Shown: piece by piece, positions 20,052 through 26,974 of the stretch
Layout: each line of letters starts with the position of its first letter
Numbering within the stretch: position 1 is the stretch's first letter
Notes under the pieces: generated by a model
The model's database searches: none
The model's input: the letters and a program-made list of their open reading frames with translations, nothing else
Told to the model about the DNA's origin: nothing
Translations under genes and position numbers: made by a program
DNA from: Gammaproteobacteria bacterium
GTDB lineage: Bacteria; Pseudomonadota; Gammaproteobacteria; GCA-001735895
DNA length: 56,453 nucleotides
Assembly: GCA_014382695.1 (NCBI GenBank)
Contig: JACNJF010000128.1
Location: 1 to 56,453 of the forward strand
Reading direction: 5' to 3'

Positions 20052-20384
20052 CGCAATAACTCGGCAGGTAGTTTCACGCAGGAATCGAAAGTAGCGGCAA
20101 TCTTACAGAACTCAACTACAAATAGAATTACCTGACGCATTTTGAGCTGTTTTCTGGCGGCTTAAAAAAAATCAGCTATTTAAGCCGCGCAGGGTTTTGC
20201 GTGGACAGAAGAGATCAGTAGCAGAAATAAAAAACGGTAAACGATACCTGCTACGCGGTTTAACCATTGCAGACAAATATCTTTGCTGTATAACCATACA
20301 TTAATTATGGATAAACTGTGTCTGATTGTATCTCAACTTTAAGCTTCGCAGGGTCATCATCGCTATTCGAGGCGCGGTGCTGCA
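20052..20384. other. Intergenic region with two inverted repeats, left border of signalling block
   Basis: No gene is seen in these 333 bases. A perfect 8-bp inverted repeat GGCTTAAA / TTTAAGCC (20159-20166 and 20179-20186) encloses 12 bases. A 7-bp repeat GTAGCAG / CTGCTAC lies at 20218-20224 and 20248-20254. Neither is followed by a T run, so they are not clear terminators. The region is AT-richer than its flanks and is a natural place for the promoter of the signalling genes. Confidence 0.5.
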
Positions 20385-21491
20385 ATGGCTATTAAAACCC
20401 TGCTGATCGTTGATGATGAGCCGACCAACCTGTCTGTTTTAAGCCGTATATTATCTCCACAGTTTAAGGTGCTGGCGGCCCTATCCGGTGCCAGGGCGCT
20501 ACAGATCGCGATCGCCCATCCAACTCCTGATTTAATACTGCTGGATGTGATGATGCCGGAAATGGATGGTTATCAGGTTCTGTTTTCACTAAAGCAGAAT
20601 CCGCTGACCGCAGACATCCCGGTCATCTTTGTGACTGCGATGGATTCGTCTCCCGATGAAAAGAAGGGCTTTGAGCTGGGTGCGGTTGACTATATCACCA
20701 AACCGGTTCGGCCGGATGTGCTGATAGAGCGGGTTAAGTCACATCTGATGCTTAAGCAGGCGCGTGATTTTATGCACGATAAGAATGAGTTTCTGGAAGC
20801 AGAGATCAAACGTCGCATGGAAGAAAATCTTTTGATACAGAATGTGACGATCCGGGCACTGGCACATCTGGCTGAAACGCGCGATCCGGAAACCGGTGAT
20901 CATATTCTGCGCACTCAGTCTTACGTTGAGGTATTAGCCAGCAATCTGCAGCAACATCCGCGCTTCAAAGATATTTTAACCACCCAGTATATCGATCTGG
21001 TGACCCGCTCCGCTCCGTTACACGATATCGGTAAGGTCGGTATACCAGACAGTATTCTGCTTAAGCCTGGAGCGCTGAGCGATGACGAGTGGGTCATCAT
21101 GCGCTCCCACTCCGGTATCGGGGCCAAAGCGATGGAGCTGTCGGAGAAAGACCTGAAGCAGCCGGTCGAGTTTCTACGGTTAGCGAAAGAAATTGCACAC
21201 TGGCACCATGAGCGCTGGGACGGCAAGGGCTATCCTGATGGCCAGAGTGGTGAGCAGATACCCGTTTCGGCACGCCTGATGGCGCTGGCGGATGTGTTTG
21301 ATGCGCTGATCACGCCACGCGTGTATAAAAAAGCGATACCGTTTGGGCAGGCCAGAGACATTATCATGCAGGAAAAAGGCAAACAGTTTGACCCGGATAT
21401 TACCGACGCTTTTATGCAGAGTTATCAGAAGTTTGTAGCAATCGCGCACCGCTATCAGGTGGAAGCCGTGAGCCTGCAGACAGAAGCTTGA
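20385..21491 (+). CDS. Response regulator with HD-GYP c-di-GMP phosphodiesterase domain
   Basis: The protein has 368 aa. The receiver domain (about 1-125) has the acidic pair in [10 protein letters not shown], the phosphoacceptor Asp54 in [11 protein letters not shown], Thr84 and a Lys in YITKPV. A coiled linker leads to an HD-GYP domain (about 150-350). This has His173, His213-Asp214 in [12 protein letters not shown] and the full [13 protein letters not shown] at 274-286, so the metal site looks complete. It is RpfG-like: phosphorylation should control hydrolysis of cyclic-di-GMP. It is first in a run of four signalling genes; the next ORF starts four bases after its stop. Confidence 0.93.
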
Positions 21492-21495
21492 TGCC

Positions 21496-22083
21496 ATGGG
21501 TAGCAGTATTTTGAGTGCAGATAAGTGGAGTCGAAAAAAACGCGTAGTGGTCTCGGTATTAACCTTGGCTGTTATCAGTACGTGGTTGTTGTATGGATAT
21601 GTGAAGTCATCATCTGCTGCACCGATCCGAGTTGGTGTTTTGCATTCCCTGAGCGGTACCATGGCGATCAGCGAAACGGCCGTTGTCGATGCAACACTGC
21701 TGGCAAAACGCTCACTCAAGAAAATCAATCTGCTGAATCGAATCGAGTGGGTGAAAGATGGTGAAGAGGCGCTCGACTTTCTGTTTCATCGGGGGGTTCA
21801 TGCGCATGAAAAGTCTGATCAACCCAAGGTCGTATTACTCGATTTACGTCTGCCCAAGGTCGATGGCATCGAGGTTTTAAAGGCGATCCGGGCAGAACCG
21901 GCCATGCGTTCTATGCCGGTGGTGATCCTGACATCTTCCAAAGAAAATAAAGATATGCTGGCCGCCTATGATCTGGGAGTGAACAGCTATGTGCCCAAAC
22001 CGATTGCGTTTGATAAGTTTTCCAAAACCGTGGCTGATCTAGGACTGTTCTGGGTGCTGGTCAATCAGGTACCGAACACATAG
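21496..22083 (+). CDS. Chimeric ORF: signal anchor and start of a periplasmic-binding sensor fused to a truncated receiver domain
   Basis: The 195-aa frame is open but composite. Residues 1-42 are a basic N-terminus and one membrane helix (about 17-36). Residues 43-70 ([18 protein letters not shown]...) match the beginning of the urea/amide-type periplasmic-binding domain found at the N-terminus of certain sensor kinases. From about residue 71 the sequence becomes an Rcp1-like response regulator ([26 protein letters not shown], phospho-Asp in [26 protein letters not shown]). The receiver lacks its first strand and acidic pair. The simplest reading is an in-frame deletion that removed most of a sensor kinase and the start of its partner. 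If made, the receiver would face the periplasm, so function is doubtful. Confidence 0.75.
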
Positions 22084-22092
22084 GAATTTAAT

Positions 22093-23397
22093 ATGGTGAC
22101 TACTCCTCTACGTATACTGTTCCTGGAAGATAATCCGAACGATGTTGCACTGTGTCAGCGGATTTTACACAAGTCAGAGCTCAACTTTGAGTCGCTGCGG
22201 GTGGAAACCGAGGAGGCCTATAAGCTGGCACTGGATGAGTTTAATCCGGATTTGATACTGGCCGATTACAACCTGCCAAATTACGATGGACTGAAGGCAC
22301 TTAGCTATTTACGTAGCCAGCATCTGGAATTGCCATTTATTTTCTTGACCGGGGCAATGGGTGAAGATCGTGCGGTCGAAAGCCTGCATCAGGGAGCAGA
22401 TGATTATATTCTAAAGGATCGCCCCGGCCGACTGCCTGAGGCTATACATCGCGCACTGGAGTACAGGCAGCAGCAGACTCAACTGAAGCAGGAAAAGAAG
22501 TTAAGACGGCAGCAGGAACAGATTTTTCGTGCCGCGTTAAACAGCGTGCGTGATGCGTTTATTGTATCCGATGATGAAGGCTATATTCTGGAGTGGAATC
22601 CAGCCGCTGAATCGATGTTTGGGTATACCCGAGAACAGGTGATCGGCAAAGATTTGCATGCCCTGCTGGCACCACAACGCTATCACGCAAAGGCGTATAA
22701 AGGGATGCAACGCTTCAGGGCGAATGGTGAAGGCTCGATCATCGGACAAACCCGCGAACTCATGGCCTTGCGCCAGGATGGCAGTGAGTTCCAGATAGAG
22801 ATTTCGTTTTCCCGTATCAAGGTGGGGGATAATCATCTGGCCGTAGGGCAGGTCAGGGATATCACCGAGAAAAAAGAGTATCTGGCTAAAATTGAGCATC
22901 TGGCACTGTACGATTCGCTCACCGATCTACCCAATCGCCAGCTTTTTATCAATCGTTTACACCATGAAATGGCACAGTTAGCGCGGAGCGGTCAGGGTCT
23001 GGGTCTGTTGTTTATCGATATCGATGGTTTCAAGGAGATTAACGATGTGTATGGGCATGAAACGGGAGATGTGATGTTGAAAGAACTGGCTGATCGGATG
23101 AAGCGAACCATGCGTGAGGGCGATACTATTTCACGTTTAGGGGGCGATGAGTTTGTCGCAATACTGCTGAATGTGTCTGATGAAACCGAATCGCAGTCAA
23201 TACTACTGCGCCTGCTCAAGGTTTGTGCGTTACCGGTGGTGATCGAACAGCAGCCACTCCAGGTCTCTGCCAGCATAGGGGTTACCTTTTATCCGCAGCG
23301 CGAGGAAGTGAGCGCCGAAAGAATATTAAATCAGGCTGATAGCGCGATGTATCTGGCCAAACAGGCGGGCGGAGGCAGGTACTGCATCCACAAGTGA
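22093..23397 (+). CDS. Response regulator REC-PAS-GGDEF diguanylate cyclase
   Basis: The protein has 434 aa. The receiver (about 8-125) has FLEDNPNDVALC, the phosphoacceptor Asp in ILADYNLPNYDG, a Thr in FLTGAMGE and a Lys in YILKDR. A PAS domain follows (about 150-265, NSVRDAFIVSDDEGYILEWN), then GGDEF (about 275-434). The active site reads GGDEF at 350-354 with an RxxD inhibitory-site candidate (REGD) just upstream, so both synthesis of cyclic-di-GMP and product inhibition are plausible. The start ATG follows the chimeric ORF by nine bases. Its receiver closely resembles that of the next gene, suggesting tandem duplication. Confidence 0.93.
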   Translation: MVTTPLRILFLEDNPNDVALCQRILHKSELNFESLRVETEEAYKLALDEFNPDLILADYNLPNYDGLKALSYLRSQHLELPFIFLTGAMGEDRAVESLHQGADDYILKDRPGRLPEAIHRALEYRQQQTQLKQEKKLRRQQEQIFRAALNSVRDAFIVSDDEGYILEWNPAAESMFGYTREQVIGKDLHALLAPQRYHAKAYKGMQRFRANGEGSIIGQTRELMALRQDGSEFQIEISFSRIKVGDNHLAVGQVRDITEKKEYLAKIEHLALYDSLTDLPNRQLFINRLHHEMAQLARSGQGLGLLFIDIDGFKEINDVYGHETGDVMLKELADRMKRTMREGDTISRLGGDEFVAILLNVSDETESQSILLRLLKVCALPVVIEQQPLQVSASIGVTFYPQREEVSAERILNQADSAMYLAKQAGGGRYCIHK

Positions 23398-23424
23398 AAA
23401 CGAAAACCTGAAACCAGCGTTGAG

Positions 23425-26400
23425 ATGAAAAAAAATTTCGCATTCTATTACTCGAAGACAGTCAAACGGATGCTGAGCTGAATCAGCGCGTGCTACGCAA
23501 ATCCGGTCTGGAATTTGAATCGCAACGGGTTGAAACCGAACAGGACTTCATCCGGGCTCTGGACCAGTTTAATCCCGATCTGGTACTGGCGGATTATAAC
23601 CTGCTCAACTATGACGGTCTTAAAGCCTTGCGCGAGTTACGCAAACGTAACCCTCTTTTACCGTTTATGTTTGTATCCGGTGCAATGGGTGAAGAGCGTG
23701 TAGTAGATAGCCTGTTACAGGGTGCGGATGATTACATTATCAAGGATCGGCTGTCGCGCCTGCCTTCTGCGGTTAGACGTGTGTTGGATGAAGTCGAGCG
23801 CAAGCGCACTCTAAAGCTCGCACAGCAGGCCCTGCTTGATAGTCAGGAAAAATACAAGGCACTCTACGATAACGCACCTGTGGCCTATCAATCGCTGAAT
23901 GAGCAGGGCGAGCTGATCGACATCAATCCGGCCTGGCTGAGTTTGCTGGGTTATCAACGCGACGAAGTCATCGGTAAGAGTCTGGGTGAATTTCTTCATC
24001 CGGATTCTATTGGGTACTTTAAAACCAGATTTCCCCAGTTTAAGCAGGAAGGGGTGATCAGTAATGTGCAGTTCCAGATCCGGCATAAACATGGACATTA
24101 TCTGGACATCGAGTATGAGGGTCGCACCACCTTTTTTGAGGATGGACGCTTCGCCCAGACCTACTGTGTGTTTCAGGATATTACCGAGCGTAAGCTGGCC
24201 GAGCAGGCACTGAAACAGGCCTATCGGGTGGTTGAAAATAGTCCGGTGGTACTGTTCCGCTGGAAAGGCGCAGCCGGCTGGCCGGTGGAGCTGGTTTCCA
24301 ACAACGTCAGTCAGTTCGGTTATGCCGCAGAGGATCTGCTGGCGGGCAGGGTCGATTATCAATCGATGATTCATCCGGATGATCTGGCACGGGTTTTATC
24401 CGAAGTGAAGGTGTATCTACAGCAGGGTATCACGGAGTTTCAGCAGGAGTACCGAATCGTAGCGCGCGATGGTCAAATACACTGGGTGGACGACCGCACC
24501 CAGATTGAAAAAAGCGCGGATGGTGATATCGAGTACCTGCAGGGGCTGGTGATCGATATCACCGAACGCAAGCTTATCGAGCAGCAGCTGCTGAAGCTGG
24601 CACAGGCGATGGAGCAAAGCCCTGAAAGTATCGTGATCACCAATACCGATGCAGAAATCGAATTTGTGAATGAAGCGTTTGTACAATCAACCGGATATAG
24701 CCGCGAACAGGCACTGGGTCAAAACCCGCGTATCCTGCACTCGGGGCGTACTCCGGTGGAAACCTACCGCTCTATGTGGGCATCTTTACAGGCGGGCAAG
24801 CCGTGGAAAGGTGAATTCTGTAATAGAAACAGCAGTGGGAAAGAATACTTTGAATTAGCCATCATCGCTCCGATCCGCCAGCCGGATGGCAGCATCACCC
24901 ATTACCTGGCGGTGAAGGAAGATATTAGCGAAAAAAAACGTGCGGGCAGAGAGCTGGATCTGCATCGTTATCACCTGCAGGAACTGGTCGAGCAGCGCAC
25001 CCTTGAGCTGGAAGAGGCCCGGCTCAAAGCCGAGACGGCCAGCCGAGCCAAGAGTTCCTTTCTGGCCAACATGAGCCATGAAATACGTACCCCGATGAAT
25101 GCGATTATCGGCCTGACCCATCTGATGCAGAAAAATCATCCGACCCCAGAGCAGCGCGACCGGCTGGTAAAGATTGATAGTGCCGCCAATCACCTGCTGT
25201 CCATTATTAACGATATTCTCGATATCTCGAAAATAGAGGCTGGCAAGATGCAGCTGGAGCAGTCGGATTTTCATCTGAGTGGGCTGTTCGATCATATCAA
25301 ATCGATGCTGCGTACCCAGGCACTGGACAAGGGCTTAACCATCGGGGTCGACACCAACCATGTGCCGCTGTGGTTACGTGGTGATCCTACCCGCCTGCGT
25401 CAGGCGCTACTGAACTATGCCAGCAATGCGATCAAATTTACCGAAACAGGAGGGATTTCAATACGTGCTGTCAAAAATTGCAGGAACAGGATGAAGAGGT
25501 TCTGGTGCGCTTCGAAGTGCAGGATAGTGGCATCGGTATCTCACCCGCCAATCAGGCAAACCTGTTCAAGGTATTCGGGCAGGCCGATATCTCGACTACT
25601 CGAAAATACGGCGGCACCGGGCTGGGGCTGGTGATCACGCGCCGTCTGGCCGCTATGATGGGAGGTGAGGCCGGGTTCGAAAGTGTGCCAGGTGAAGGCA
25701 GTACGTTCTGGTTTACTGCCCACCTGCGTCGAGGTCTGGGACATTATTCAGAGGCCATCAATCTGCAGCAGGAAGATGCCGAAATGCTGCTGCGTCAACA
25801 GCAAGCGGGTACACCTATTCTGCTGGTGGAAGACAACGCCATCAATCGTGAAGTAGCAACGGAACTGCTGCTGGGTGCTGAGTTGATCGTGGAAACGGCT
25901 AATAACGGGCGTGAAGCTGTTGATAAGGTTCGAGCCAATCACTATGCGCTGGTGCTGATGGATATACAGATGCCGGAAATGGATGGGCTGGAAGCGACAC
26001 AGCTGATTCGATCGATGCCGGGCAAACAGAAACTACCGATACTGGCGATGACCGCCAATATATTTGAAGATGACCGGCAGGCCTGTAGTGCGGCAGGGAT
26101 GGATGACTTTGTCGCAAAGCCGGTGAATCCCGAGCAACTGTTTTCCTGTTTACTAAAGTGGCTGCCAGCCTCTTCAAGACAGAAAAAAGAGGTGCCCGCC
26201 GTAGCAAAAAAAGTGGTGCCGGATGCTGAAAAAGCTTTCTCTAAGCAGTATCAGCAGTTAGCGGCAATAGCCGGGCTGGATCAGAATGCAGGACTGGATC
26301 GCTTACGTGGCGATGTTTCGATCTATCTACGCCTGTTGCGCCAGTTTGCGGCTAACAGTGAGCAGCAAGGTCAAAAGTTGCTGGCCCTGCTGGAGTCCGG

Positions 26401-26833
26401 AGAATTCGATGCGGCACGCCAGCTGGCGCATAGTATCAAGGGTGTTGCTGGAACTCTGGGGCTGGTTCGTTGTGCCGCCGCTGCCAGCAGGATAGAGCAA
26501 AGTTTGGCTCAGCAAGATGCGGCTGCGGTTCCGTTGTTGCTGGAAACGTTAAGCCGGGAACAGCAACAGTTTGTTCAGCTACTGGCCGGGGTTAGCGATA
26601 ACGTGAAACGAGTTGCAGCTGTTTCCATACAACAGATCAGGCCGCTGCTGAAGCAGATGGAAGCTTTCCTCGCGGCAGACGATACCGCTGTCAATGAGCT
26701 ATTCGTAAAATTTGAGAGTGAGTTAACGGCAGCCTTTGGTGAGCCGGTTGAAAAGCTGGGGTTGCAGATTACCTCGTTCGATTATCCGGCGGCACTGCAA
26801 ACGCTTCGGGCTTTATACTCGATGCCCGATTAG
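23425..26833 (+). pseudogene. Hybrid sensor kinase REC-PAS-PAS-PAS-HisKA-HATPase-REC-Hpt, broken by two -1 frameshifts
   Basis: If two bases are restored this is one gene of about 1136 aa. The first break is in an A8 run at 23428-23435: with nine A the ATG at 23425 reads MKKKFRILLLEDSQTD into the receiver domain; without it the only usable start is a GTG at 23490 that misses the acidic pocket. The second break is in an A5 run at 25473-25477, between the N-box ([14 protein letters not shown]) and the G1-box (VQDSGIGIS), so neither fragment carries a whole ATPase. Other domains look sound: three PAS, H-box FLANMSHEIRTPMN, second receiver [11 protein letters not shown], and an Hpt His in [12 protein letters not shown]. 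The downstream open frame runs 25478-26833. Decay, slippage-dependent expression or sequence error are all possible. Confidence 0.8.
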
Positions 26834-26974
26834 AGTTGCGACTGCTTGAACCTTGTGCGGATTGGCCGGATGAAAAAAGTACGTGCCAGAAGTCGAGATG
26901 GCAATCCATCATGGCTTCAACAGAGTAGTACAAACCGGGCGTGTTTTTCCGTAGAATAAGCCGCTTTCATCTTG

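Follow-up and report, generated by a model that had tools for sequence, protein, structure and literature searches.

The signalling island between thiE and hemL

The window, the whole stretch of 56,453 nucleotides that we analysed, carries a short run of signalling genes between thiE and hemL. In one ORF of this run, the N-terminal end of a periplasmic binding protein is joined to most of a receiver domain. The features of the region are:

20052-26959, + strand: signalling island between thiE and hemL, not at this place in seven congeners
20385-21491, + strand: first island gene, a response regulator with a receiver and an HD-GYP-type phosphodiesterase domain (RR-HD), apparently intact (ORF; Pfam Response_reg and HD_5; motif by inspection)
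21496-22083, + strand: chimeric ORF, 195 aa, ATG start, TAG stop
21496-21705, + strand: 5' part of the chimera (codons 1-70), derived from a periplasmic binding protein of the sensory UrtA-like type (Pfam, class-wide binding-protein matches, UrtA matches in the PDB)
21697-21705, + strand: junction zone, codons Leu68-Leu69-Ala70 (alignment of Rcp1-like receivers; comparison with the binding proteins of loci L064 and L208)
21709-22080, + strand: 3' part of the chimera (codons 72-195), an Rcp1-like receiver that begins midway through alpha-1 (Pfam; 65% identity to a receiver of Ca. Thiodictyon syntrophicum)
22093-23397, + strand: receiver-PAS-GGDEF protein (RR-PAS-GGDEF), GGDEF motif intact, starting 9 bases after the chimera stop (ORF, Pfam)
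23425-26833, + strand: hybrid kinase, receiver-PAS-PAS-PAS-HisKA-HATPase-receiver-Hpt, frameshifted (HATPase_c split over two frames in Pfam)
23428-23435, + strand: A8 tract close behind the ATG at 23425; owing to it, this ATG and the receiver are in different frames
25466-25481, + strand: frameshift at an A5 tract or close to it, within the HATPase region (tblastn with the hybrid kinase of locus L203)

Compared with seven congeners, this species alone carries the island between thiE and hemL. In the seven others no such operon lies before hemL, whose upstream neighbour is thiE, thiD or an AmpG-like gene; some of these contigs are short, and in one genome (G006) two other ORFs intervene. This synteny suggests that the island was acquired by horizontal transfer. 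Its composition does not mark it as foreign (GC 0.509, against 0.513 in the rest of the window).

The last gene of the island is broken. In the tblastn search with the L203 hybrid kinase, residues 153-437 aligned in one frame up to 25466 and residues 442-811 in another frame from 25481. The A8 tract at 23428-23435 is probably a further frameshift, less certain than that at 25466-25481, as another start is usable; the receiver frame reads EKKFRILLLEDSQTD upstream of its first in-frame GTG at 23490. The tract could also be read as phase-variable. General sequencing error was rejected as the cause of the frameshifts, because 93 comparisons with congener proteins over 18.9 kb of the window revealed no frame switch in the flanking genes.

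Make-up of the chimeric ORF

The original prediction described 21496-22083 as an in-frame chimera, and this is borne out by the ORF and by the Pfam and PDB matches. Residues 44-70 match positions 1-27 of the 363 positions of the Peripla_BP_5 profile (E 2e-6), and residues 72-179 match positions 16-110 of Response_reg (E 2e-17), which identifies the second half as a homologous receiver. Likewise, the UrtA structures 7s6e, 7s6f and 8hic pair with residues 43/44-69, and Rcp1, RcpA, RcpB and bacteriophytochrome response regulators pair with the chimera from residues ~62-73 to 189-195. The 27 profile positions do not amount to a complete Peripla_BP_5 domain, and HisKA and HATPase_c are absent (Pfam), so that the protein is not a sensor histidine kinase either. 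Its 5' part runs from a basic N-region, with the stretch KWSRKKR, through a hydrophobic helix of about 20 residues (~17-36) into beta-1, loop and alpha-1 of the binding protein (~44-70). To judge by inspection of this N-terminus, Sec targeting and export of the chimera are plausible.

The receiver half retains Asp116 (21841-21843), Thr146 (21931-21933) and Lys168 (21997-21999), at columns that are invariant in the receiver alignment. The acidic DD pair of the beta-1/alpha-1 loop is gone, as the original prediction had stated; in the alignment to Rcp1-like receivers, the chimera has nothing that corresponds to the VEDN of the relatives. The receiver had also been described as missing its first strand. 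This holds for its own beta-1, but the fused piece supplies the binding protein's own beta-1/alpha-1 unit. The join, which had been placed near 21703-21711, does keep the frame and lies slightly further upstream, at 21697-21705. Around this point the binding proteins read like DATLLAIEQIN and the receivers like DAELALRALKK. Because Leu-Ala is common to both parent families here, the exact joining base cannot be fixed. A short repeat at the join, as suggested by these protein sequences, could have served the deletion discussed below.

The chimera protein was searched against 57 relatives (overlapping with 41 family genomes), 369 class genomes, 72,556 plasmids and 50,697 phages. The strong matches span the receiver half only, and the N-terminal 71 residues match binding proteins only. 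Homologues of identical architecture, which according to the original prediction would indicate an established family, were found nowhere in the family, class, plasmid and phage sets: no other record in them has both halves together. The class set is a sample, from which records of the same species were possibly left out, and absence from it is not proof of absence. A peptide-pattern scan of 84,980 GTDB species genomes was poorly directed, returning mostly unrelated receivers and UrtA proteins, and yielded no second fusion. A literature search for deletion-fusion genes found nothing close.

The probable parents and the proposed deletion

The closest receiver, that of Ca. Thiodictyon syntrophicum, aligns with chimera residues 69-193. 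A PAS-HisKA kinase gene ends 3 bases before it, and the gene of a receiver-PAS-HisKA-receiver-Hpt protein (L203) comes after it. The receiver-PAS part of this downstream protein is 52% identical to the RR-PAS-GGDEF protein of the window, and the protein matches the hybrid kinase of the window at its end with 47% identity. Throughout the class, Rcp1-like receivers occur intact, frequently in the order PAS-HisKA kinase, receiver, RR-PAS/GGDEF gene. The stretches taken upstream of the kinase-receiver loci in the class contained no Peripla_BP_5 gene. At two kinase-Rcp1 loci the kinase is immediately preceded by another kind of ORF, whose start is signal-like (L257 7023-7880 and L264 2672-3643); possibly, these encode other sensory periplasmic proteins. 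Two Rcp1-like receivers elsewhere carry an internal stop codon (G141:C125:16434-16877 and G313:C7:723694-724140), and loss of the receiver may thus recur.

The original prediction traced residues 1-70 to a sensor kinase, an assignment with which the relatives do not agree. Nearly all N-terminal matches in the class at E<=1e-5 lie in frames of 320-575 aa, as expected for stand-alone binding proteins. The best of them (genome G257, 52%) is a stand-alone binding protein of 453 aa between two larger signalling ORFs, and in several relatives the binding-protein gene stands beside a histidine kinase. The gene order is binding protein, kinase and small receiver at locus L208, and RR-HD, binding protein and hybrid kinase at L209. 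In the window, RR-HD directly precedes the chimera, as it precedes the binding protein at L209. On the strength of these stand-alone genes beside kinases and the shared RR-HD order, we prefer a separate binding-protein gene, and not the kinase itself, as the probable 5' parent.

A variant of the same deletion, whose confidence overlaps with that of our preferred explanation, would start from a single chain of binding protein and kinase. A kinase gene normally adjoins the receiver gene, and a fused gene would therefore fit the geometry. Yet we consider a single-chain parent rather unlikely, because stand-alone binding-protein genes beside kinases were found repeatedly, whereas a Peripla_BP_5-kinase fusion was not found among the N-terminal matches in the class, in a search that could have missed one. 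The only longer frame, of 828 aa in genome G124, was rejected as a fusion of binding protein and kinase; it is an UrtA-like protein whose frame is extended upstream by a long spurious stretch. UrtA-like domains also begin at residue 421-442 of frames of 811-838 aa at L120 2862-5294 (a Phycisphaerales MAG) and L098 10983-13496 (Rhizobacter), where the N-termini are either genuinely extended or lengthened by a spurious frame upstream.

With the binding-protein gene as a separate 5' parent, the ancestral order, pieced together from several genomes, was probably RR-HD, UrtA-like binding protein, PAS-HisKA kinase, Rcp1-like receiver, RR-PAS-GGDEF and hybrid kinase. A deletion of ~3 kb would have taken the binding-protein gene from codon ~71 onward, the whole kinase gene and some 20 codons at the start of the receiver, with the frame kept by chance at the Leu-Ala stretch common to both genes. 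The spacing at L208, one relative, implies a loss of 3257 bases (~3.3 kb). The missing parts are absent from the organism's own genome, which is 96% complete: at E<=1e-40 its only binding-protein body is UrtA on contig C111, it has no further Rcp1-like receiver that is similar to a comparable degree, and it lacks a partner-type kinase (best identity 35%, versus 45-48% for the partners in relatives). The half-matches, these absences and the L208 spacing support the earlier suggestion that the ORF is the fossil of a kilobase-scale deletion. An intact version in relatives, for which that prediction had called, was found in part. Both parent types occur separately, but the full ancestral layout is present in no single family, class, plasmid or phage record searched.

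Deletion remnant, artefact or working protein

We consider it likely that the chimera is a non-functional product of a ~3-kb deletion in a decaying, horizontally acquired signalling operon. Such a protein would be unable to bind ligand. Moreover, with the acidic pair lost it would hold no Mg2+ and hence would not be phosphorylated normally. It would be sent to the Sec pathway and, to judge by the lost domains and the frameshift nearby, is most likely unfolded and degraded, the ORF being a pseudogene. The receiver half contains no stop and looks like normal receivers, which indicates either that the decay is recent or that the ORF is still under some selection. Since the ORF is open to its end, ribosomes may still reach the closely following RR-PAS-GGDEF gene. 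If the chimera is a remnant, it illustrates how an acquired sensory operon loses its input half while output genes of the c-di-GMP type (HD, GGDEF) stay open, and it cautions annotators against naming the ORF a membrane response regulator.

The main rival explanation is an assembly error, in which distant pieces of the operon were misjoined and the real genome still has the binding protein, the kinase and a full receiver. The genome is a draft of 238 contigs, and both nearby frameshifts lie at poly-A tracts, where they could be sequencing errors. However, the window has other A7-A8 tracts, and no comparison with congeners shows a frame switch in the flanking genes. Furthermore, the binding-protein body and the partner-type kinase would then be expected somewhere in a genome that is 96% complete but were found nowhere else in it, and for a k-mer misjoin the plausible overlap, Leu-Leu-Ala with at most ~9 bases, is short. 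An artefact therefore seems distinctly improbable. A further alternative is that the ORF encodes a working pseudo-receiver, membrane-anchored or exported, in which beta-1/alpha-1 of the binding protein completes the CheY-like fold and which acts by protein-protein contact. Its ORF is open and the D, T and K positions are kept. In addition, the first unit of either parent is beta-1/alpha-1 of a doubly wound fold, and it has been proposed that binding proteins descend from a CheY-like ancestor (PMC10601554).

AlphaFold2 models were built from a 24-row alignment and from a 9-row alignment of residues 41-195; the mixed alignments A2 and A4 were misaligned and were dropped. The 24-row model has a strand (45-49), a helix (60-76) and a strand (82-86) through the join. 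Foldseek aligned this model to Rcp1 over ~150 columns of its 195 residues (TM 0.58 by query, 0.77 by target), a length which suggests that the binding-protein strand is modelled in the beta-1 slot of the receiver. The 9-row model is at odds with this, showing a hairpin at the fused N-terminus, and in both models the pLDDT of this N-terminus is low (~33-46). Moreover, the chimera is known from a single species, and its operon contains another gene that is broken. We therefore regard a working pseudo-receiver as very unlikely, and the new exported receiver-fold protein that the original prediction had offered as its second option gains no positive evidence from a single species, a decaying operon and a join without a confident fold. 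Slimmer still is the chance that the ORF encodes a naturally arisen hybrid, part binding protein and part CheY-like receiver, with its join in the first helix, where the topologies match, and with the ability to fold and function outside the cytoplasm. Should such a hybrid fold, nature would have supplied a test of whether the two protein groups share an origin, as has been proposed.

Pseudo-receivers are defined as receivers that lack at least one of the five active-site residues DD, D, T and K (PMC12632262). The chimera, without the DD pair, formally fits this definition. However, it lost these residues by N-terminal truncation and replacement in a one-off gene, and not by substitutions in a whole domain.

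The receiver half is homologous to Rcp1, RcpA and RcpB (1i3c, 1k68, 1k66) and to the bacteriophytochrome response regulators 5ic5 and 5brj, to which the chimera is 39-40% identical in the structural alignment. It shares with them the D, T/S and K positions, and the related genes in relatives stand after a kinase gene. It differs from these regulators in lacking its own beta-1 and the acidic pair, and in carrying a foreign membrane-targeting N-terminus. Similarly, the chimera resembles UrtA/AmiC-type binding proteins (Peripla_BP_5; 7s6e, 7s6f, 8hic) in the first 27 profile positions, but the ligand-binding body, 336 of the 363 positions, is missing. Deletion-fusion pseudogenes occur in decaying acquired islands. 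The chimera is like them in that neighbouring genes appear to have been joined in frame with a further broken gene beside them, and differs only in the pair of genes involved.
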